From IMG/VR virus record IMGVR_UViG_3300037069_000142, positions 1 to 20,002 of that record: 20,002 nucleotides of DNA; one strand, given 5' to 3'. Source of the stretch: a virus. A model generated the notes under the pieces. The model did not search any database. It was not told where the DNA came from and worked only from the letters and a program-made list of their open reading frames with translations. A program made the position numbers and the translations under genes. Below, piece after piece: positions 3,337-16,094 of the stretch. Within the stretch, counting starts at the first letter, position 1. Every line of letters starts with the position of its first letter.

Positions 3337-3678
3337 ATGGTACGTCCCCGGAAGGACGCTGAAAAACCAGTTTCAAAGCGCCCTCCGGCCACCACTGCAG
3401 AGGCCAGAGAGAAGCGTCTCATTGGTCTGGCAGTCGATTTGGTTGAACGTAAACTAATCGAAGGTACGGCGTCATCACAGGAAACCACTCATTTTCTCAA
3501 ACTAGCATCCGTTCGACACACGCACGAAACGGCCAAATTGGTCGCGGAAACGAAGCTCGCGGAGGCTAGGGTGACCTCTATGGCCATGGGTGAGAACATC
3601 GAGAAGCTATATGGCGACGCTATTGCGGCGATGACGTCATATCAGACCGGTGAAGAGTTTGAAGAGTACGATGGTTAA
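3337..3678 (+). CDS. Putative small terminase subunit
   Basis: This encodes 113 residues, starting at an ATG after GGGAGGTGAAAA. The basic N-terminus (RPRKD, SKRPPATT) is followed by helical segments: about 24-45 (EKRLIGLAVDLVERKL), a THFLKLAS segment and a long coiled-coil-like helix (about 58-85). An acidic tail follows. This layout, with a DNA-binding-like basic start and oligomer-forming helices, resembles small helical proteins before the large terminase in actinobacterial phages that are called small terminase subunits. Such a protein would recognise the packaging site and regulate the motor. No clear helix-turn-helix is visible. The HNH gene overlaps its 3' end. Confidence 0.55.
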   Translation: MVRPRKDAEKPVSKRPPATTAEAREKRLIGLAVDLVERKLIEGTASSQETTHFLKLASVRHTHETAKLVAETKLAEARVTSMAMGENIEKLYGDAIAAMTSYQTGEEFEEYDG

Positions 3679-4087
3679 CAACGTCCGCTCTTATCAAGAA
3701 ATGAAGCGGTTTATAACCCACGAAGAACGATTCGATTATTTGAAGCTTCGTGCTTCAGTTGGCGAGTCTACTTTCGGGTTTGACCGATGGATTAACCAGA
3801 ATTTCTATCGATCTGCGCAGTGGAAACACACGCGAAATGTCGTGATTGCTAGGGATATGGGTCTGGATATGGGCGTTGAGGGTTTCGAGATTTACGATAA
3901 GGTTATCGTTCATCACATGAATCCAATGCGCCCCGAGGACATTGACGATGGAGATCCGGATATTTTGAACCCGGAATACCTCGTTTGTGTCGCCCACCGA
4001 ACCCATAATGCCATCTATTTCGGCGATAAAAGCCTGCTCCCGCAGCCACTTATCGAAAGAAAACCTGGGGATACAAAGCTTTGGTAG
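3671..4087 (+). CDS. HNH endonuclease
   Basis: This encodes 138 residues. The ATG at 3671 is chosen because GAAGAG lies at a good distance and it gives only an 8-base overlap with the previous gene; an upstream in-frame start would lie deeper inside that gene. The nuclease core is visible: KVIVHHMNP holds the first histidines, followed after an acidic insert by NPEYLVCVAHRTHNAIYFG, the Asn/His part of the fold. In many HK97-type phages an HNH protein beside the terminase helps the motor cut concatemeric DNA, and the position here fits that role. A homing nuclease is less likely, since the gene sits in frame with its operon and does not interrupt another gene. Confidence 0.85.
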   Translation: MVNNVRSYQEMKRFITHEERFDYLKLRASVGESTFGFDRWINQNFYRSAQWKHTRNVVIARDMGLDMGVEGFEIYDKVIVHHMNPMRPEDIDDGDPDILNPEYLVCVAHRTHNAIYFGDKSLLPQPLIERKPGDTKLW

Positions 4088-4491: not shown

Positions 4492-4890
4492 ATGCTCGTT
4501 TCGGAACTTGAACACGCCGGCGTGAAGGGTATGAAGTGGGGCGTTCGCAAAGCCGACCGTGTTGCTTCATCGGATCATACCGAAGCTCGAAGTCTGAAGA
4601 AGAAAAAGGTTAGCGAGCTCTCAAATACGGAGCTTCGCAAGCTTAACGACCGAAAGCAGCTTGAAAAGAAGTACAAGGACCTCAACCCTAACGTGATCCA
4701 AGCCGGACACAAGAAGGTTGCGGCCATCATTGCTCTTGGCGGACTTGCAGCTACCGCGGTAGCCCTTAGTAAGGGTCCCGTTGGTCAGCTCGGTAAGGAA
4801 GCCATCGCAAAGGCAGTAAAAGCTAGCATGTCCAATGCTGGTAAGCACGTCCTGGTCGAAGCCACCAAGGCTACGGCTCGGCATCTCTAG
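4492..4890 (+). CDS. Tag protein 1: HAGVKGMKWG motif plus hydrophobic helix
   Basis: This encodes 132 residues with an ATG after TAGGAGG. The tag HAGVKGMKWG is at residues 8-17, directly after a short acidic start. A Lys-rich helical stretch (about 36-62) and a hydrophobic Ala/Gly/Leu segment (about 74-96, KVAAIIALGGLAATAVAL) follow, then an amphipathic Lys/Ala tail. Tags of this form occur near structural genes in many Gram-positive phages, but I know of no proven function. The hydrophobic segment suggests possible contact with a membrane or a hydrophobic virion surface. It lies between connector and large terminase and is the first of four proteins here with this tag. Confidence 0.7.
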   Translation: MLVSELEHAGVKGMKWGVRKADRVASSDHTEARSLKKKKVSELSNTELRKLNDRKQLEKKYKDLNPNVIQAGHKKVAAIIALGGLAATAVALSKGPVGQLGKEAIAKAVKASMSNAGKHVLVEATKATARHL

Positions 4891-4910
4891 TCTAGTAAGG
4901 AGGATTGGCG

Positions 4911-6659
4911 ATGGGACTCTCCAATACAGCAACACCTCGGTATTATGGGGAGTTTCGCGAAAAGGTCATCAATGGTGAAATTCCTGTTAACAAGGAAGTA
5001 GCCATGGAGATGGAACGCATCGACGATCTCATCGCCAATCCGAATTACTACTACGACGATGGGGCCATTAATGGCTTCATTAACTACTGTGAGAAAGAAC
5101 TCACTCTAACTGATGGAACGGATCTCCATCTCCTAGACTCATTCAAGCTCTGGGCCGAGTCCCTACTCGCCTGGTTCTACTTTGTCGAGCGCAGCGTGTA
5201 CGTTCCCTCGCCCGACGGTCATGGCGGAAACTACGTCCGAAAGACCATCAAGAAGCGGTTGGTTAGTAAGCAGTATCTCATCGTTGCTCGAGGGGCAGCG
5301 AAATCGATGTACGCTTTCTGCATCCAAAGTTACTTCTTGAACATCGATACACAGACGACTCACCAAATCACTACGGCTCCGACCATGAAGCAGGCTGAGG
5401 AAGTGATGTCGCCGTTCCGAACGGCCATCACTCGAGCTCGTGGTCCGCTGTTTAAGTTCCTCACCGAGGGTTCGCTGCAGAACACGACGGGCTCTAGGGC
5501 TCTCCGTGTCAAGTTGGCGTCTACCAAGAAGGGGATTGAGAACTTCCTCACCGGTTCGATCCTCGAGATTCGCCCGATGTCGATTAACAAGCTCCAGGGT
5601 CTACGACCCAAGGTGTCTACGATTGACGAATGGTTGTCTGGTGACGTTCGAGAGGACGTTGTCGGCGCAATCGAGCAGGGCGCATCCAAGCTTCCGGATT
5701 ACATCATCGTCGCGATCTCTTCTGAGGGCACCGTCCGTAATGGTAGTGGCGACACTATCAAAATGGAACTCGCGGACATTCTCAAGGGCGAGTACTACAA
5801 CCCTCACGTTTCGATCTGGTGGTATAAGCTCGACTCAATCGAAGAAGTAAATGATCCGGCGATGTGGCCTAAGGCCAACCCAAACCTGGGTAAGACCGTT
5901 TCGTATGAAACCTATCAGCAGGATGTCGAACGGGCCGAGAAGGCTCCCGCCGCGAGGAATGATATCCTTGCCAAGCGCTTCGGCATCCCAATGGAAGGTT
6001 ATACGTACTTCTTCACCTATGAAGAGACGATCCCCAGCAAGCGGAAGAAGGAATACTGGCGAATGGTTTGCGCTTTGGGCGCCGATCTCTCTCAGGGCGA
6101 TGACTTCTGTGCGTTTACTTTCTTGTTCCCCCTACCTACTGGTGGATTCGGTATCAAAACCCGAAGCTACATCTCCTCCGCGACTCAGCTGAAGCTTCCC
6201 GGCGCAATGCGAGCGAAGTACGAAGAGTTCATCAATGAGGGTAGCCTTCATGTCCTTGACGGATCCACTCTGGACATGGATGATGTGTTTACCGACCTGG
6301 ATAAGTATATCCTGGCTTCGGAATACGACGTTCGCGCTCTCGGATACGACCCCTACAATGCCAAGGTCTTTGTCAGTCGTTGGGAAACCGAGAATGGTCC
6401 TTACGGAATCGAGAAGGTTATTCAGGGAGCTCGAACTGAATCCGTCCCGCTTGGTGAACTAAAGCACCTGAGCGAGGATGGCTTGCTTGAGTTCGATCAG
6501 AACCTTATGTCTTTCGCGATGGGTAATGCCATCACTATGGAAGACACAAATGGTAACCGAAAGCTCCTCAAGAAGCGGCAAGATCAGAAAATCGACAACG
6601 TGGCAGCCTTGATGGATGCGTATGTCGCCTGGAAATCCCATCGAGGAATGTTTGAATAG
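4911..6659 (+). CDS. terL: Large terminase subunit (packaging ATPase and nuclease)
   Basis: This encodes 582 residues. It powers DNA translocation into the prohead and cuts the concatemer. The ATPase half shows a Walker A-like ARGAAKSM (R127 to S132, K131) and Walker B TIDEW with D239 and E240. The nuclease half has GADLSQGDD (D392), a later GYDPYNAK segment, and IDNVAALMDAY near the C-terminus (D562), fitting acidic metal ligands of the RNase H-like fold. Length and motif order fit HK97-type large terminases. The ATG at 4911 is chosen because AAGGAGG lies 7 bases upstream; the TTG at 4905 is too close to it. The next gene starts 8 bases after the stop. Confidence 0.93.
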   Translation: MGLSNTATPRYYGEFREKVINGEIPVNKEVAMEMERIDDLIANPNYYYDDGAINGFINYCEKELTLTDGTDLHLLDSFKLWAESLLAWFYFVERSVYVPSPDGHGGNYVRKTIKKRLVSKQYLIVARGAAKSMYAFCIQSYFLNIDTQTTHQITTAPTMKQAEEVMSPFRTAITRARGPLFKFLTEGSLQNTTGSRALRVKLASTKKGIENFLTGSILEIRPMSINKLQGLRPKVSTIDEWLSGDVREDVVGAIEQGASKLPDYIIVAISSEGTVRNGSGDTIKMELADILKGEYYNPHVSIWWYKLDSIEEVNDPAMWPKANPNLGKTVSYETYQQDVERAEKAPAARNDILAKRFGIPMEGYTYFFTYEETIPSKRKKEYWRMVCALGADLSQGDDFCAFTFLFPLPTGGFGIKTRSYISSATQLKLPGAMRAKYEEFINEGSLHVLDGSTLDMDDVFTDLDKYILASEYDVRALGYDPYNAKVFVSRWETENGPYGIEKVIQGARTESVPLGELKHLSEDGLLEFDQNLMSFAMGNAITMEDTNGNRKLLKKRQDQKIDNVAALMDAYVAWKSHRGMFE

Positions 6660-6667
6660 GAGTCGGT

Positions 6668-7237
6668 ATGAACAAAAACCTCGAGGAACAAAAGGAAGAG
6701 TTCCTCGCGCATCACGGCATTAAAGGGATGCGTTGGGGGCATCGCGGAAAGAGCGAAAATTATTCTGACCAACAGGTAAAGCGGGATGCTCAGATCTATG
6801 GTAAGCGTGGGACGCAACGAATCAATCGTTCGATCACCAAGGGCGACCAAATTTCAGTGGCTAGAGGCGATGAGAAAACTCGCCGAGACAAGGTCATGGG
6901 TCGAAATAAGTACGTCCGACAGGGCGGAAAGATGGCCGGCGCCGTTGGTGGTGCTGCCGTAGGATATCTTGCGGTTAAGGGTCTTTCGGCCCTCGTTGAG
7001 AGTGATCTCGGACGCGCCGCCGTTCTTAAGGTAATGGGTTCTGGGACTCGAAACTCATTTATGGCGTCGACTCTTGCGTACCATCAAATCCGAGAAGGAA
7101 TTAACGCATACGCCGAGAGTCCTCTCATTCAAGGTATGGTCGCCGTGGGCGCTGCAAAAATTGGACATATGTTGGCTGGCGACATTGCAGTTAACGTAAA
7201 TATGAGGGCGCATGGTTATGACCCTAACAGAAAGTGA
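6668..7237 (+). CDS. Tag protein 2: HHGIKGMRWG motif, Gly-rich hydrophobic segments
   Basis: This encodes 189 residues. An acidic helical lead (NLEEQKEEFLAH) precedes the tag HHGIKGMRWG at residues 15-24. A polar region follows with SDQQVKRDAQIYGKRG and NRSITKGD, a pattern I associate with tag proteins from other Gram-positive phages. Two Gly/Ala-rich hydrophobic stretches come next: about 95-117 (GKMAGAVGGAAVGYLAVKGL) and about 154-172 (IQGMVAVGAAKIGHMLAG). The stretches could insert into membrane or line a hydrophobic assembly. Its first 50 bases are almost identical to those of the next gene, while the remaining proteins differ. The role is unknown. Confidence 0.7.
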   Translation: MNKNLEEQKEEFLAHHGIKGMRWGHRGKSENYSDQQVKRDAQIYGKRGTQRINRSITKGDQISVARGDEKTRRDKVMGRNKYVRQGGKMAGAVGGAAVGYLAVKGLSALVESDLGRAAVLKVMGSGTRNSFMASTLAYHQIREGINAYAESPLIQGMVAVGAAKIGHMLAGDIAVNVNMRAHGYDPNRK

Positions 7238-7244
7238 TGCCACC

Positions 7245-7676
7245 ATGGACAAAAACCTCGAAGAACAAAAGGAAGAGTTCCTCGCGCATCACGGTGTGAA
7301 GGGTATGAAGTGGGGCGTTACGAAAGCCGATGGTTCTCGGGTGGAAGTCTCCAAGAAAGACTACAAGTGGATCAAGAAGGCAACCCGTAAGTATCCCATG
7401 GACGCTTACAATCGTGCTGCATCCAAGATGAACGACGGTGAGATCGATCGAATCAACGGTAAGCGTGAATACCAGAACGTGGACATGCTGGATCCGAAGA
7501 ATAAGCGAGTCGCCGACAAGTATTACAACGAGTATTCGACCGCCATGACCAAGGCGCTGAATGATTCGGTCAAGGAGCTCGGTTTGGTTAGTCCAGATGG
7601 TGCGCTCAAGATCGGTTTCGAATACGATGTTGAGACCGACGCCATGCCTAGATGGGGGTTGATTGAGAATGACTGA
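7245..7676 (+). CDS. Tag protein 3: HHGVKGMKWG motif, soluble body
   Basis: This encodes 143 residues. The ATG at 7245 is preferred over an upstream in-frame GTG because the protein from here matches the start of tag protein 2 (MDKNLEEQ against MNKNLEEQ). The tag HHGVKGMKWG is at residues 15-24. The body is polar and rich in Lys, Asp, Tyr and Asn (KKDYKWIKKATRKYP, KYYNEYSTAM), with no membrane span, and ends in an acidic stretch. Unlike proteins 1 and 2 it looks fully soluble. It overlaps the start of the next tag gene by 8 bases if that gene begins at 7669. The function is unknown. Confidence 0.7.
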   Translation: MDKNLEEQKEEFLAHHGVKGMKWGVTKADGSRVEVSKKDYKWIKKATRKYPMDAYNRAASKMNDGEIDRINGKREYQNVDMLDPKNKRVADKYYNEYSTAMTKALNDSVKELGLVSPDGALKIGFEYDVETDAMPRWGLIEND

Positions 7677-8151
7677 TATTTCTCCTATTGACGTCCAGAT
7701 GGACGAGCGGGGACTCATCGTATCGATTTCTTTTGGAGATGTGGCTTCTATGGCTCACGCAGATAAAACTCTTGATGAGTTGAAGACCGAGTTCCACGCC
7801 GAGCTCAAGCATATCGGCGTGAAGGGTATGAAGTGGGGTAAGCGAAAGGGCGGTATCGGTTCCCGAACCAGTGAAGCCCACACGGATCGCAACTCCACAC
7901 TGGCAAATCGTAGTAGGCGGATCGCTGAAGGCAAAGCCTCCAAGCTCGAGGTAGCCAAGGCCGCCGTTCTGACTACTAGCCTGACCAGCATTATCAAAAA
8001 TGGTGGACTTAAGGGCGCAGCCAAGAAGCGTGTTAAAGACCTGGAGGCCCAGAGCGAACGAATCGCTGCGGGTAAGGCTACGATCGGCGATCGACTCAAC
8101 ATCGCTGGGCGACTTCGGGTTTCCGATCTCGTCGTAAAGCGAGTTTCCTAG
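7669..8151 (+). CDS. Tag protein 4: HIGVKGMKWG motif, basic helical body
   Basis: This encodes 160 residues from the ATG at 7669, which overlaps the previous stop and suggests coupled translation. The ATG at 7750, with GGAG upstream, is an alternative start giving 133 residues. It would place the tag HIGVKGMKWG at residues 21-30 after an acidic helix (KTLDELKTEFHAEL), as in proteins 2 and 3. The body is Lys/Arg/Ala-rich with IAEGKASKLE and IAAGKATIGD, two similar segments around a middle LTTSLTSIIKNGGLKG stretch. This suggests a small internal duplication. The portal gene follows, so the protein may act in head assembly or be packaged, but no enzyme motif is visible. Confidence 0.68.
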   Translation: MTDISPIDVQMDERGLIVSISFGDVASMAHADKTLDELKTEFHAELKHIGVKGMKWGKRKGGIGSRTSEAHTDRNSTLANRSRRIAEGKASKLEVAKAAVLTTSLTSIIKNGGLKGAAKKRVKDLEAQSERIAAGKATIGDRLNIAGRLRVSDLVVKRVS

Positions 8152-8187: not shown

Positions 8188-9438
8188 GTGGTATCTATTT
8201 TCGAGCGGATGGCCAACGGAGCCAATCGACTCTCCCATGCCTGGAACGCATTCATCGATAAGGATGAAGAACGCGAGCAGGGATACAATCCTAGTTACGG
8301 CGCGGCATATGGGGTTACCCCAAATCGTCGTAGACTGACTGGGGCGAATGAGCGATCGATTGTTGCTTCGGTATATATGCGTTTGGGTATCGACGGCGCG
8401 GCGGTTGACATGCGGCATGTTCGACTTGACGAGAACGGTCGATACGAAACCGATATTCCGAGCGGGCTCAATGAAATTCTGACGCTCGAAGCCAACATCG
8501 ACCAGGGTTCTCGACATTTTCGTCAGGATGCCATCATGACGATGTGTGATAAGGGCTACGTAGCTCTTGTACCGATCGATACATCGACAAATCCCCAAAT
8601 GCCAGGCGTTTGGGATATTAAGTCGATGCGAGTAGGTGAGATTGTTCAGTATTACCCTCGACATGTTCGAGTAAGTGTATGGAACGATATGCTGGGTCGC
8701 CGAGAAGAACTCACGGTACCCAAGGCCCTCACTCCGATCGTCGAAAACCCTCTGTATCAGGTCATGAATGAGCCGAACTCGACTGCTCAGCGACTCATCA
8801 GGAAGCTCAACATCCTCGATGCCGTTGACGAAGCGTCTAGTTCGGGTAAGCTCGATCTGATTATCCAGCTTCCTTATGTGGTGAAGTCTGAAACCCGAAA
8901 GGATCAGGCCGAGTCCAAGATTAAGGACATCGAGATGCAGCTGAGGGGGTCTAAGTACGGAATCGCCTATGCGGACGCCGCTGACAAGATCACCCAGTTG
9001 AATCGCCCGGCCGAAAACAACCTTCTTTCCCAGATCGAGTATCTTACGAAGATGTTGTATGGACAGCTGGGCATGACCGAGTCGGTCTTCACGGGATCTG
9101 CCACTGAGCAGGAGATGCTGAACTACTACAACCGCACGCTGAATCCAATTCTGGCTGCGTTTACGGAAGCCATGCGTCGAACCCTCCTTACGAAGACCGC
9201 TCGAACCCAGCGGCAGTCCATTATGGCCTTCCGTGATCCGTTCCGGGACGTTCCGGTCTCAAACATCGCTGAGATCGCGGACAAGTTTACTCGAAATGAA
9301 ATTCTGTCGGCGAACGAGATTCGCGGCGTCATTGGATTCCGTCCTTCGGCAGATCCCAAGGCTGATAAGTTGGTCAACTCCAACATGCCTCAGCCTGACC
9401 CCTCAAGTCCGCCGGTTTCAGAAACCGAACAAGTCTAA
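8188..9438 (+). CDS. Portal protein (HK97 type)
   Basis: This encodes 416 residues with a GTG start 7 bases after AAAGGAGGTGAG. It forms the ring at the capsid vertex through which DNA enters and leaves. Recognisable parts are the early ERSIVASVYMRLGIDGAAVDMRHV region, NPLYQVMNEPNSTAQRLIRKLNILDA in the middle, and the helical part with LTKMLYGQLGMTESVFTGSAT followed by EQEMLNYYNRTLNPILAAF. The later EIADKFTRNEILSANEIRGVIGF is a typical portal C-terminal element. Its length is normal for HK97-like portals, and the C-terminus is Pro/Ser-rich. It sits just before the protease/capsid gene, the standard order. Confidence 0.9.
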   Translation: MVSIFERMANGANRLSHAWNAFIDKDEEREQGYNPSYGAAYGVTPNRRRLTGANERSIVASVYMRLGIDGAAVDMRHVRLDENGRYETDIPSGLNEILTLEANIDQGSRHFRQDAIMTMCDKGYVALVPIDTSTNPQMPGVWDIKSMRVGEIVQYYPRHVRVSVWNDMLGRREELTVPKALTPIVENPLYQVMNEPNSTAQRLIRKLNILDAVDEASSSGKLDLIIQLPYVVKSETRKDQAESKIKDIEMQLRGSKYGIAYADAADKITQLNRPAENNLLSQIEYLTKMLYGQLGMTESVFTGSATEQEMLNYYNRTLNPILAAFTEAMRRTLLTKTARTQRQSIMAFRDPFRDVPVSNIAEIADKFTRNEILSANEIRGVIGFRPSADPKADKLVNSNMPQPDPSSPPVSETEQV

Positions 9439-9456: not shown

Positions 9457-11487
9457 ATGGGACAGTCCAAGACTGGCGATAAGCCGGATTTTGGTGGTTG
9501 GGCCACTAAGAACGATCTGCTGTGTTCGGATGGACGAACTATTCGGGCCGGAGCCTTCAAGCACCAGTCCGGCGTGGTAGTTCCTCTCGTCTGGCACCAC
9601 CAGTATGACTCCCCGGACAACATTCTTGGTCACGCCGTTCTTACGGAACGACCGGGTGGTGTTTACGCGGAGGGATACTTTAACGACAACGCTTCGTCCA
9701 AGTCCGCTAAGGTTCTTGTGCAGCATGGTGATGTAAACATGCTCTCGATCCTGGCCAATAAGCTTATCCAGCGCGGCGGCGACGTCATGCGTGGAGACAT
9801 CAAGGAAGTGAGTCTGGTTCTTGCCTCGGCAAATCCTGGCGCCTTCATTGAAAGCGTAAACCTCGCTCATGGCGACGGATTCACCATCTCGGAAGATGAA
9901 GCTATCATCCGATCTGGCGAGGAACTCGACTTCGGCGATCTCATCCAGCACGCTGACGAGTCTATCTCCGACGCTGGCGAAACGAAAGAAGAGGAACAGA
10001 TGGCACCCCAGCTCCAGCACGCCGAGGCGACTGAAGATGAAGAGACCGTCGAGGACGTTCTCGGGACTCTCTCCGACAAGCAGCGAAAGGTCGTCGAGTT
10101 CGTCGTCGGCGCCGCTGTTCAGGACGAGCGGGACAACAATTCCGGTGGAGACACCGTAAAGCACAGCGAAATCGAAACCGATCAGCTGATCCACGAATAC
10201 AAGGAAGGTTTCACTGCGGCTATGAACGCTTTCGAACAGAACGGCACGCTTGGCGGGGCCGCTTCTCAGCAGCGTCCGACGCTGACCCACTCGCAGCTCG
10301 AGACGATCGTCAAGGACGGTCCGAAGTTCGGCTCGATCAAGGAGTCGTTCCTGGCTCACGCCGAGGAGTACGGTATCGAGAACATCGATCTCCTGTTCCC
10401 CGACGCGAAGACGGATAGCAACGGCATTTCTTGGATCAAGCGTCGCACTGAGTGGGTCGCCAACGTCTTCGCGAATGTCCACCGCTCGCCCTTCTCGCGT
10501 GTGAAGTCCCTTTCGGCCGACATCACCGCCGACGAGGCCCGTGCAAAGGGTTACGTCAAGGGTACGATGAAGAAGGACGAGGTGCTCAAGCTTCTGAAGC
10601 GCGTCACCACGCCCAAGACCATCTACAAGAAGCAGAAGCTTGACCGCGACGACATCGTCGACATCACCGAGGTCGACATCATCACCTGGCTCAAGGGTGA
10701 GATGCGCCTCATGCTCGATGAGGAAATCGCTTCGGCCATCCTCGTTGGTGACGGTCGCGAGCCTGACGACGAGGACAAGATCGACGAGGACCACCTTCGT
10801 CCGATCGCGTTCGATGTCGACATGTACAACACGACCATCGAGCTCTCTGCCAACCCGGAGCCTGCCGACATCGTCGAGCAGATCGTGCGTGCCCGCAAGC
10901 ACTACAAGGGTACCGGCACTCCGACGTTCTACACCACGGACGATGTCCTCACCGACCTCATCCTGGATAAGGACACCCTGGGTCGTCGCTTCTACGCGAC
11001 CGAGGCCGAGCTCGCTGCTGCTCTCCGCGTCAAGGAGATCATCGTCGTCGAGACCATGGAGCGCGTGCCCGACATCGTGGGTATCATCGTCAACCTCACC
11101 GACTACCAGGTCGGCGCGGACAAGGGCGGCGAGATCAACACGTTCGATGACTTCGACATCGACTACAACCAGCAGAAGTACCTGATCGAGACCCGAATCT
11201 CGGGTGCGCTGACCAAGCCCAAGGCTGCCGTCACGATCAAGTACAACCAGGGTAACGTTGTGACCCCGAACGCCCCCACCTTCGTGTCGGGTACCGGCGT
11301 CGTGACCATCCCGTCGCAGACCGGTGTCGTGTACAAGAACGATGACACCAACGCCACGCTGACCGCAGGCGCTCAGACCGCTCTCGCCGCTGGCGCGACG
11401 CTGAACGTCCAGGCTGCGCCGGCCGCGGGCTACTCGTTCCCGCACGGTGGCGACTACGACTGGGCCTTCACCCGTCCTCTGTCCTAA
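9457..11487 (+). CDS. Fusion of prohead protease, scaffold and major capsid protein
   Basis: This single 676-residue frame starts after AAAGGAG. Residues about 1-165 look like an HK97-type prohead serine protease: W46-H47-H48 with the likely catalytic His, MLSILAN with candidate S97, then KEVSLVLASANPGA. Residues about 182-270 are acidic and helical (DKQRKVVEFVVG), fitting an internal scaffold. Residues about 275-595 are an HK97-fold capsid protein (FPDAK, DIVDITEVDIITWL, LGRRFYATEAELAAALRV). Residues about 600-676 form a beta-rich end domain (TGVVYKNDDTNAT, AGYSFP, DYDWAF), also present on the major tail protein. Normally protease and capsid are separate genes. The capsid part shows strong G/C-ending codon bias, fitting high expression. 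Confidence 0.88.
   Translation: MGQSKTGDKPDFGGWATKNDLLCSDGRTIRAGAFKHQSGVVVPLVWHHQYDSPDNILGHAVLTERPGGVYAEGYFNDNASSKSAKVLVQHGDVNMLSILANKLIQRGGDVMRGDIKEVSLVLASANPGAFIESVNLAHGDGFTISEDEAIIRSGEELDFGDLIQHADESISDAGETKEEEQMAPQLQHAEATEDEETVEDVLGTLSDKQRKVVEFVVGAAVQDERDNNSGGDTVKHSEIETDQLIHEYKEGFTAAMNAFEQNGTLGGAASQQRPTLTHSQLETIVKDGPKFGSIKESFLAHAEEYGIENIDLLFPDAKTDSNGISWIKRRTEWVANVFANVHRSPFSRVKSLSADITADEARAKGYVKGTMKKDEVLKLLKRVTTPKTIYKKQKLDRDDIVDITEVDIITWLKGEMRLMLDEEIASAILVGDGREPDDEDKIDEDHLRPIAFDVDMYNTTIELSANPEPADIVEQIVRARKHYKGTGTPTFYTTDDVLTDLILDKDTLGRRFYATEAELAAALRVKEIIVVETMERVPDIVGIIVNLTDYQVGADKGGEINTFDDFDIDYNQQKYLIETRISGALTKPKAAVTIKYNQGNVVTPNAPTFVSGTGVVTIPSQTGVVYKNDDTNATLTAGAQTALAAGATLNVQAAPAAGYSFPHGGDYDWAFTRPLS
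9987..10002 (+). promoter_or_regulatory. Possible internal ribosome binding site and start within the capsid fusion
   Basis: An in-frame ATG at 10000 (M182 of the fusion) has GAAGAGG six bases upstream, exactly at the protease/scaffold boundary. Starting here would yield a 495-residue scaffold-capsid protein without the protease. This would allow many capsid subunits per protease copy, as in phages where the protease and scaffold genes nest. It is a sequence-based suggestion only. Confidence 0.4.
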
Positions 11488-12133: not shown

Positions 12134-13009
12134 ATGGCTGTACTTACTTGGGACGGAACGGGTGAGCGTCAGTTTGAAACTGGTGTCGACCGTGGCGTCC
12201 TGTACCTTCCGACGGGCGGTGTCTACGACACTGGTTTCGCCTGGAATGGTCTGACGGCCGTCACTGAAAGCCCTTCGGGTGCCGAGGCGACGCCGTTCTA
12301 CGCAGACAACATCAAGTACGCGAACCTTCTCTCGGCTGAGGAGTTCGGCGGAACGATCGAGGCTTACACCTACCCGAAGGAGTTCGGTCAGTGCGATGGC
12401 ACGGCCACTCCCCAGCCTGGTGTCTCGGTCGGTCAGCAGACTCGTAAGTCGTTCGGTCTGTCGTACCGCACCAAGATCGGTAATGACCTGTCGCCGGATG
12501 CCGGCTACAAGCTTCACCTGGTCTGGGGCGCCCTCGCGGCACCTTCTGAGAAGGCATACGCGACTGTCAATGACACTCCTGAGCTGATTACATTCAGCTG
12601 GGAGATGACCACGACCGCGGTCCCCGTCACGGGCCTCAAGCCCACGGCTACGATGACGATCGACTCGACCAAGGTTGCGCAGTCCGCGCTGACCGTCCTC
12701 GAGAATGCTCTCTACGGCACGGCCGGTACTTCACCGCGCCTCCCCATGCCCGACGAGGTCATCGCGATGTTCGCTGGTACGGTCACTGCGGTCACCCCGA
12801 CCGCCCCGACCGCCACCACGGCTGGTGTCATCACCATCCCGACCGTCACCGGTGTGGTTTACCGTCGCGCGGACACGAACGCCGTCGTCACTGGTTCCGT
12901 TACGATCACTACGCTCAACGACTCGCTCGTTATCAAGGCGCAGCCGATCGCTGGCTACCAGTTCACGCCCATGTCGGACGACGACTGGACGTTCAAGAAG
13001 ACGGTCTAA
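12134..13009 (+). CDS. Major tail protein (tail tube) with C-terminal surface domain
   Basis: This encodes 291 residues with a strong GAAAGGAAG site. Residues about 1-215 are a tail-tube fold typical of Gram-positive siphophages, with GVDRGVLYLPTGG, WNGLTAV, NIKYANLLSAEEFGGTIEAYTYPKEF, and the tube-family signature SFGLSYRTKIGND followed by YKLHLVWG. Residues about 220-291 are a separate beta-rich domain (GVITIPTVTGVVYRR, AGYQFTP, DDDWTF), closely similar to the C-terminal domain of the capsid protein. It probably projects from the tail surface. G/C-ending codon bias is strong, as expected for an abundant protein. Two paralogues lie downstream and lack this end domain, so this copy is the likely principal tube subunit. 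Confidence 0.88.
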   Translation: MAVLTWDGTGERQFETGVDRGVLYLPTGGVYDTGFAWNGLTAVTESPSGAEATPFYADNIKYANLLSAEEFGGTIEAYTYPKEFGQCDGTATPQPGVSVGQQTRKSFGLSYRTKIGNDLSPDAGYKLHLVWGALAAPSEKAYATVNDTPELITFSWEMTTTAVPVTGLKPTATMTIDSTKVAQSALTVLENALYGTAGTSPRLPMPDEVIAMFAGTVTAVTPTAPTATTAGVITIPTVTGVVYRRADTNAVVTGSVTITTLNDSLVIKAQPIAGYQFTPMSDDDWTFKKTV

Positions 13010-13585: not shown

Positions 13586-14392
13586 ATGGCTAAACTCGCT
13601 TGGGGCCTGTCTGGTCAGCGATATTTTGAATCGGGAACCGATCGAGGCGTGCTGTACGTTGGCACGACCCCGGGGGTTCCCTGGAACGGTCTCATTTCGG
13701 TTAGTGAGAATCCCTCTGGCGGTGATCCGGTTCCCTACTACATGGACGGGATCAAGTATCTTAACGTCGCTGCGGCAGAGGAATTCGAGGCCACGATCAG
13801 CGCCTTCTCTTCCCCTGATGAATTCGGCGTTTGTGACGGTACGGCTTTGCTTTCAAATGGTCTGTTCGCTACACAGCAGCCTCGGAAGCCTTTCGATCTC
13901 ACATATCGTACACTAATCGGTAACGACGAAGATGGTATTGAGCACGGATACAAGCTCCATCTCGTATATAATGCTCTGGCGAAGCCTACGACTAGAGAGA
14001 ACAAGACTCTTGAACGATCGGTAACACCGGCAAATTTCGACTGGGATATTTCGACGTTGCCTATCCCTGTTCCGGGCTATAAGCCTACGGCACACTTCAT
14101 TATCGATAGTCGTCAGTCTTCGAAACTTCTAATGGATCAGATCGAAAGTATTCTGTACGGTTCGGCGATCACCGATCCTCGAATGCCGTCGATCTCTGAG
14201 ATTCTGGTCATGTTTGCCAGCTATGCAGAGCTCGAAGTCATGGTCAAATATGACACCGGTCTCTTTGGCGTTGCCATGCTTCCGACGATTATCAGTTCGA
14301 TTGTTCCGGCCCTTCCCCAGGGGGTTTCTTCCCTATGGTTGGACAAATCTCAAGGAACATATTCCACTCTTAAACAAGTTATTGGAGACTAA
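13586..14392 (+). CDS. Second tail-tube paralogue
   Basis: This encodes 268 residues with an ATG after TAGGAGC. The first about 210 residues align along their whole length with the major tail protein at 12134: GTDRGVLYVGTTPG, PWNGLISVSENPSGG, DGIKYLNVAAAEEFEATISAF, FDLTYRTLIGND, GYKLHLVYNALAKP. The end differs: instead of the beta-rich surface domain there is a short, hydrophobic, Pro/Ser-containing segment (about 225-268). It may be a minor tube component, a distal tail adaptor or a tube cap. Codon use is less biased than in the first copy, suggesting lower expression. Confidence 0.78.
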   Translation: MAKLAWGLSGQRYFESGTDRGVLYVGTTPGVPWNGLISVSENPSGGDPVPYYMDGIKYLNVAAAEEFEATISAFSSPDEFGVCDGTALLSNGLFATQQPRKPFDLTYRTLIGNDEDGIEHGYKLHLVYNALAKPTTRENKTLERSVTPANFDWDISTLPIPVPGYKPTAHFIIDSRQSSKLLMDQIESILYGSAITDPRMPSISEILVMFASYAELEVMVKYDTGLFGVAMLPTIISSIVPALPQGVSSLWLDKSQGTYSTLKQVIGD

Positions 14393-15314: not shown

Positions 15315-16094
15315 ATGACGAGACTCAATTGGCATGAGATCGATTCTATTTCCTATAACGCTGGAGCCGACCGAGGTGTATTCTATCCTTCGGTCGGCCC
15401 CGGCGTTCAATGGGACGGTATCGTCTCTGTGAACGAGACTATCGAAGACTCCGACGCTAGAATTATCTATATTGACGGAGCAAAGATTCAGACTGAATTG
15501 TCCCTCGGGGTATTTTCAGCCGAACTCACGGCGGTGACGTACCCCCCGGAGTTCGAAGAATATGATGGGATCGCCGAAGACGGTTGGACAGATCAGTCTC
15601 GAAAAACATTCAATTTTTCCTATCGAACACTAGTCGCCGATGACGAAAAGGGCATCGATCGCGGATATTTGATCCACCTGGTCTATAATGTTTTGGCCGC
15701 CCCCACGGCTAGAGAATATTCAACGTTAGACGGGTCGATCGATCCAACTCCATTCTCATGGGAGTTGACGACCAAGCCAGAATTCATTCCGAATCTTCGG
15801 GCCACTTCTCATCTGATCATCGATTCCACCAAGGTATATCCGGGGGTCCTGACCGACATCGAGAACCTTCTTTATGGCAGCGCCATCACGGATCCGAAGT
15901 TCCCCACGATCCAAGAAGTGATGGCGCTGTTTGAGTCGTATGCCATATTCAAGGTTACCAACCTTGGCGACGGGGTGGTTCGGGTCGAAGGTCCTGATAG
16001 TGTGGTATATCCTACCGGTCCTGGCATGTTTGCTATGGACTGGCCTTCTGTGGTTCGAATTTCGAGCGACACTTTTCGTATTTCCTCACTCTGA
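15315..16094 (+). CDS. Third tail-tube paralogue
   Basis: This encodes 259 residues with an ATG after GTGGAGACG. It aligns with the other two tube proteins through about residue 215: GADRGVFYPSVGPGVQWDGIVSVNE, FSAELTAVTYPPEFEEYDG, FNFSYRTLVADDEKGIDRGYLIHLVYNVLAAPTAREYSTLDGS, and IDSTKVYPGVLTDIENLLYGSA. The last about 45 residues (FKVTNLGDGVVRVEGPD onward) form a different short beta-rich end. It is closer in its shared segments to the second copy (LVYN.LA.PT.RE) than to the first. A role as specialised tube or distal-tail ring is inferred from homology and position only. Confidence 0.76.
   Translation: MTRLNWHEIDSISYNAGADRGVFYPSVGPGVQWDGIVSVNETIEDSDARIIYIDGAKIQTELSLGVFSAELTAVTYPPEFEEYDGIAEDGWTDQSRKTFNFSYRTLVADDEKGIDRGYLIHLVYNVLAAPTAREYSTLDGSIDPTPFSWELTTKPEFIPNLRATSHLIIDSTKVYPGVLTDIENLLYGSAITDPKFPTIQEVMALFESYAIFKVTNLGDGVVRVEGPDSVVYPTGPGMFAMDWPSVVRISSDTFRISSL

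Follow-up and report, generated by a model that had tools for sequence, protein, structure and literature searches.

The window analysed here is a 20,002-nucleotide stretch of viral DNA (positions 1 to 20,002 of IMG/VR record IMGVR_UViG_3300037069_000142) in which four open reading frames (ORFs) close to the terminase gene encode proteins with one short N-terminal tag, HxG[VI]KGM[KR]WG. The tag occupies H8-G17 of the ORF at 4492-4890, H15-G24 of the ORF at 6668-7237, H15-G24 of ORF 7212-7676 (ATG at 7245) and H21-G30 of ORF 7663-8151 (start at 7750). A degenerate DNA pattern for the tag gave four forward and no reverse matches in the whole record, and a reversed-pattern control gave no matches in the record. 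The tag and the genes that frame it are as follows.

4492-4890, plus strand: tagged protein 1 (132 aa), with tag MLVSELEHAGVKGMKWG, a basic linker and a hydrophobic/Gly-rich segment; the body is widespread and corresponds to the end of phrog_7021
4513-4542, plus strand: core of tag 1, HAGVKGMKWG (DUF7211)
4905-6659, plus strand: terminase large subunit (TerL), outside the tag system and used as a positional marker
6668-7237, plus strand: tagged protein 2 (189 aa), tag and Gly-rich hydrophobic body
6710-6739, plus strand: core of tag 2, HHGIKGMRWG
7245-7676 (longer ORF from 7212), plus strand: tagged protein 3, tag and soluble polar body homologous to the first half of phrog_7021
7287-7316, plus strand: core of tag 3, HHGVKGMKWG, its tag/leader DNA a duplicate of that of tag 2
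7750-8151, plus strand: tagged protein 4, tag and basic helical body of the phrog_17496 family
7810-7839, plus strand: core of tag 4, HIGVKGMKWG
8188-9438, plus strand: portal protein

All four proteins match Pfam PF23847 (DUF7211), a 25-residue family of unknown function, at 31.1-47.6 bits (E values of 1e-12 to 2e-7) against a curated cut-off of 27 bits. The full consensus reads N-terminal [acidic]-[L/I]-x-H-[H/Y/F]-G-[V/I]-K-G-M-[K/R]-W-G-V-R. The preliminary description of this DNA had located the tag in the same four proteins at the same residues, and these checks agree with it; the tag is catalogued, though without a described function. The preliminary description also placed the whole cluster between terminase and portal. 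That position holds for three genes, but the gene at 4492-4890 lies just upstream of the terminase. A literature search found no paper on DUF7211 or GVKGMKWG, and a search for virion data on the phages that carry the tag found nothing direct.

The tag is a selected protein module. Among 299 tag DNAs, the encoded residues stay the same while the third base of the codons is nearly random, which indicates selection acting on the protein. Tags 2 and 3 with their leaders are identical at 62 of 75 nucleotides, whereas their flanks are unlike (10/40 and 25/100), so that the tag moves as a module. As the preliminary description had proposed, the bodies beneath it are unrelated: pairwise BLASTP of the four window bodies gave no similarity (E > 2), and each body has its own family of relatives in other phages. 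Single-linkage grouping had joined bodies 1 and 3 and bodies 2 and 4; direct comparison showed no similarity, and these joins were discarded as chaining. One common fold that includes the tag was likewise ruled out, the bodies being unrelated and the tag region disordered in the modelled polymerase described below.

The tag is confined to one lineage, comprising Lactococcus phage 1706 and many actinobacteriophages, that is defined by a fusion of head maturation protease and major capsid protein. When 35 virus records were drawn from a tag pattern scan blind to the capsid, 34 encoded the phrog_3270 fusion, the exception being a 15.8 kb fragment. Conversely, bacterial genomes and virus records were searched for the fusion; among the 93 loci found with 6 kb or more of upstream DNA, 91 carried the tag. 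An annotated phage collection (50,697 records) held the fusion in 244 records, the tag in 233 and the polymerase described below in 250; fusion/tag/polymerase numbers were 95/95/95 in Arthrobacter, 55/55/55 in Gordonia, 54/54/54 in Streptomyces and 7/7/7 in Curtobacterium phages and were equal in Microbacterium phages too, this equality being one of counts per genus, not matched accession by accession. The tag count of lactococcal phages is low because their tag has diverged (GTVGMKWG, GVIGMRWG). In all, the lineage comprises about 250 sequenced records of lactococcal, actinobacterial and gut phages. Nearly all mapped tags (425/447) are encoded either ahead of TerL or in the interval from TerL to portal; a single one follows the capsid gene. 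Klyczek et al. (PMC5513430) remarked on a protease-capsid fusion as an unusual feature in Arthrobacter phages, and the small cluster AN Arthrobacter phages carry an unrelated fusion (PMC5513430). An association of the tag with any protease-capsid fusion was rejected, as the Arthrobacter tag count (95) equals that of the phrog_3270-type fusion (95).

In the window, the fusion gene follows the portal gene, and both encode sites in which an aliphatic residue precedes a His by two positions (Phi-x-H; arrows mark proposed cuts).

8230-8238, plus strand: aliphatic-x-His site near the portal N-terminus, RLSH↓AWNAF
9457-11487, plus strand: fused head maturation protease-major capsid protein (676 residues, phrog_3270), the proposed partner of the tag
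9862-10290, plus strand: fusion linker with proposed protease sites LAH138, IQH165, LQH188, VKH236, LIH246 and LTH278
10351-10359, plus strand: a seventh aliphatic-x-His site, LAH301↓A, early in the capsid domain

The window fusion matches phrog_3270 with an E value of 1.6e-225. The PHROGs head maturation protease match covers nearly its whole length, the capsid match covers its second half, and its relatives are labelled in their annotations as fusions of major capsid protein and protease. Since PDB sequence searches were uninformative for both the fusion (weak capsid matches only) and the polymerase, folds were compared instead. The model displays an ordered N-terminal domain (the protease, at about residues 10-125), a largely disordered linker at 135-272 and an HK97-fold capsid from about residue 279 that resembles encapsulins in a fold search. 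A single ORF thus carries both domains, the capsid being assigned by model and fold search and the protease fold by PHROG assignment. The same fusion shares a C-terminal Ig-like domain with a tail protein of the window (12134-13009; 47% identity over 60 residues).

The linker is rich in the Phi-x-H motif. A set of 67 non-redundant fusions contains 501 linker histidines, of which 429 are preceded at position -2 by L/I/V/M/F, compared with an expectation of 116 (maximum 143) in composition-preserving shuffles, a 3.7-fold enrichment, and the residue after the His is mostly S/A/G. In the capsid core of these fusions the motif was not enriched (45 versus 58), and control proteins ranged from 0.85- to 1.9-fold. 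All seven histidines between residues 135 and 310 of the window fusion fit the motif, five of them in the disordered linker; LTH278↓S279 falls at the start of the ordered capsid domain in the model and is proposed as the mature capsid N-terminus. The tags share this arrangement, with L/I at -2 in 95% and the His in 99%. Portals carry an aliphatic-x-His site near the N-terminus in 138 of 206 cases (38 expected), and these look like one homologous site. In SPN3US and phiKZ, a short motif present in several copies marks where propeptides are cut (PMC10052503, PMC9026906), and on the pattern of sites we consider it likely that Phi-x-H is the maturation protease site, in the style of T4 gp21. In Arthrobacter phage Paella (L156:18272-20764) the fusion linker is expanded by repeated modules, each with a Phi-x-H site.

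Two fusion loci without DUF7211 (L206 and L208) led to a second form of the tag. The neighbouring proteins there open with Phi-x-H, after which comes SGRYPWGSG or a near variant. This sister tag has only its first half, [L/I]xH[Y/F]G, in common with DUF7211, and ends in SGRYPWGSG. Because the exceptions keep the first half and the DUF7211 profile matches that half weakly, the common element, judged by sequence, is Phi-x-H[Y]G with two alternative endings. A Pfam scan of sister-tag proteins found no family covering the SGRYPWGSG tag. In the form LxHYGxxRxSGRYPWGSG, it stands at the head of a protein, about 900-1000 residues long, that is named RNA-dependent RNA polymerase in PHROGs, is often annotated as a helix-turn-helix protein and is spread through the phages that have the fusion; its gene does not lie in this 20 kb record (examples beyond the window are L335:4592-7366, L346:165-2840 and L349:253-3342). 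All 23 polymerase homologues with a complete N-terminus, taken from loci not selected for the sister tag and from annotated phages and including seven database phages chosen from five host genera, carry the sister tag. The polymerase has an invariant ADFDGD motif, and its model, in which the sister tag region is disordered, matches QDE-1 (7y7r, E 2.6e-8) and a Thermus phage polymerase (8f72, E 2.4e-6) and, less strongly, the virion polymerase of a crAss-like phage. A PDB sequence search gave helix-turn-helix and chance matches only. With its DxDGD catalytic motif and fold match, the protein groups with two-barrel polymerases and is a candidate virion RNA polymerase.

The bodies that follow DUF7211 tags are diverse. 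Single-linkage clustering of a sample of tagged proteins returned 160 body groups. Most bodies are unnamed, and many are hydrophobic or Gly-rich. Recognised Pfam domains include a GNAT acetyltransferase with a papain-fold deamidase toxin-like domain, an ADP-ribosyltransferase exoenzyme, transglutaminase-like, DUF6883 and 2H phosphoesterase domains, each usually in one or two tagged proteins. Other phages are known to inject proteins that contain enzymes of these kinds (PMC5512222, PMC7824862). In ReqiPepy6 (L314:4552-6147) and Secretariat (L155:5378-7078), an N-terminal 2H phosphoesterase (2'-5' RNA ligase-like) is fused to a tagged module; if delivered, it could degrade nucleotide immune signals. 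A domain with the motif GYxAxxDxND near its end was found by iterated search in up to about 118 tagged bodies at 79 loci (L083, L162, L036, L048, L156 and others). By eye this domain had seemed ADP-ribosyltransferase-like, an assignment that was dropped when Pfam and PDB gave no relative.

In some relatives a single ORF contains two or three tags. At L284, for instance, a module similar to window protein 3 is followed by one similar to window protein 1. Of 35 distinct cases, 28 have a Phi-x-[H/Q] site a short way ahead of the internal tag (10.7 in shuffled sequences, maximum 19), and in this analysis the bodies are depleted of Phi-x-H. This pattern of sites is consistent with separation of the modules by the protease. 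One two-tag protein, gp07 of phage 1706, is annotated as structural, a label that reportedly came from mass spectrometry, and its ReqiPepy6 relative bears the same label by similarity; these two proteins provide the only connection between tag and virus particles.

The preliminary description suggested a common sorting signal. That idea is well supported, and its protease-linked version most of all, because the tag tracks the fusion, heads enzyme-like bodies, has a sister on a polymerase and repeats a motif of the linker; from these results we infer packaging, a receptor, processing and ejection. The reading we favour, and consider probable, is that the tag is the prohead-loading signal of the 1706-like lineage, read by the protease-capsid fusion, and that the cargo leaves with the DNA. 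Within this reading we are most confident that tagged proteins are packaged in the head. Encoded in the head-gene block ahead of the shell protein, tagged cargo would be recruited into the assembling prohead by the fusion, whose long linker or N-terminal protease domain most likely does the recruiting. Through its aliphatic-x-His part, the tag would imitate, or contain, a protease recognition site. The protease would cut the linker at Phi-x-H↓S/A/G, separate two-tag modules at Phi-x-[H/Q]↓S and perhaps trim the short leader that precedes the tag. Cutting inside the tag itself seems somewhat doubtful; given that the residue after the His differs from that in linkers, the tag may bind the protease uncut, as a substrate mimic. 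Mature cargo would stay in the head and enter the host with the DNA. The proposed cargo would include the small hydrophobic/Gly-rich proteins and the acetyltransferase, papain-fold, ADP-ribosyltransferase-like and 2H phosphoesterase enzymes, and the sister-tagged two-barrel polymerase, if carried, could transcribe early genes. More tentatively, we propose that a lineage-wide code in two parts (Phi-x-H[Y/F]G and then either KGMKWG or SGRYPWGSG) is recognised by the fusion and loads both changeable effectors and a two-barrel virion RNA polymerase for delivery to the host.

Several observations weigh against loading through the protease-capsid fusion. Within a single lineage, co-occurrence could stem from shared ancestry and need not mean that tag and fusion interact directly. 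The residue after the His is S/A/G in linkers but aromatic (Y/H/F) in most tags, and some control families are 1.5- to 1.9-fold enriched in the motif, which we ascribe to individual conserved positions. None of the four window bodies has a recognised enzyme domain, and the structural label of 1706 gp07 is as deposited in the record. The aromatic residue would also suit a permanent docking peptide that binds a groove of the HK97-fold shell or the portal and is never cut, its likeness to Phi-x-H being secondary. Such a peptide would fit a tag that is short, extremely conserved, set on unrelated cargo, nearly always accompanied by the same HK97-fold shell protein and disordered in the polymerase model, and the capsid model is encapsulin-like. 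Permanent docking leaves unexplained, however, why tag and linker share a motif and why Phi-x-[H/Q] sites stand between modules, and we regard it as unlikely.

Other functions for the tag appear less probable again. A signal for membrane translocation or ejection, used not in head assembly but once the new host is reached or while the protein moves through portal and tail, would suit the many hydrophobic or Gly-rich bodies and the sister tag on a polymerase, which would need delivery. The near-perfect link to the fusion and the linker motif argue against it, as does a host range from Lactococcus to actinobacteria; no comparable link to a tail or host feature was seen, and such a signal is improbable. 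The position of 425 of the 447 tags before TerL or between TerL and portal could instead mark a terminase or portal handle on assembly factors that stay out of the virion. TerL relatives occur in more than 2000 phage records, however, and tags in about 233, some bodies have enzyme domains, the sister tag sits on a polymerase and 1706 gp07 is annotated as structural, all of which makes this explanation very improbable. Finally, the near-copy DNA of tags 2 and 3 in unrelated surroundings might point to a functionless remnant of recombination, with a start segment that moves about and is used again as genes are shuffled. This idea is largely refuted by the codon data, as an invariant protein is encoded by the 299 tag DNAs with near-random third positions, and the sister tag keeps the same half; we give it almost no credence.

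The loading system proposed here has several known counterparts. Encapsulin cargo-loading peptides are short, conserved sequences that direct unrelated enzymes into an HK97-fold shell, and are mostly C-terminal and uncut. The phage tag differs in being N-terminal or internal, unrelated in sequence and protease-site-like. The capsid targeting sequence (CTS) of T4, recognised with the protease gp21, is a short N-terminal leader on unrelated head cargo with a maturation protease site; among the T4 head cargo, an ADP-ribosyltransferase and an anti-restriction protein are ejected into the host (PMC9026906). The four window proteins also combine a short N-terminal sequence with unrelated bodies, and the tag has the Phi-x-H of the fusion linker, but with a different residue after the His. 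The tag further departs from the T4 CTS in sequence, in a presumed P1 His instead of Glu and in a conserved block about 10 residues past the presumed cut; in addition, protease and capsid here form one protein, a two-barrel polymerase bears the sister tag and loading is a prediction. The likeness is functional by analogy, and no homology is claimed. Polyvalent proteins (Iyer et al. 2017, PMC5512222), which phages inject along with their DNA, draw on a set of effector domains that overlaps with the one seen here, but theirs are concatenated in large proteins, whereas here they are mostly small and separate, or joined in two- or three-tag ORFs with a tag per module. Like the virion RNA polymerases of N4, crAss-like phi14:2 and Thermus P23-45 (PMC10770324), the sister-tagged enzyme is a single-chain phage polymerase; unlike them, it is not fused to a tail protein and is predicted to be carried by means of a short N-terminal tag. 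The new elements are the lineage-wide link between tag and fusion, the motif of protease-site type common to both, the sister tag, and the prediction of a virion polymerase.

If true, prohead loading would give DUF7211 a function, and any match to the tag would predict head cargo in hundreds of phages with terminase-adjacent hypothetical genes. A cleavage rule is predicted for a large group of protease-capsid fusions. A virion RNA polymerase is predicted in many well-studied teaching phages, where the gene is annotated as helix-turn-helix or RNA-dependent RNA polymerase. The tag would also be a simple handle for loading chosen proteins into these heads, should loading be confirmed.

Elsewhere in the window, genes for an HNH endonuclease (3650-4087) and a head-tail connector (PF24829; 4115-4483) lie upstream of the terminase; in the relatives examined they follow the capsid gene. 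Three consecutive tail proteins, encoded at 12134-13009, 13586-14392 and 15315-16094, look related by eye.

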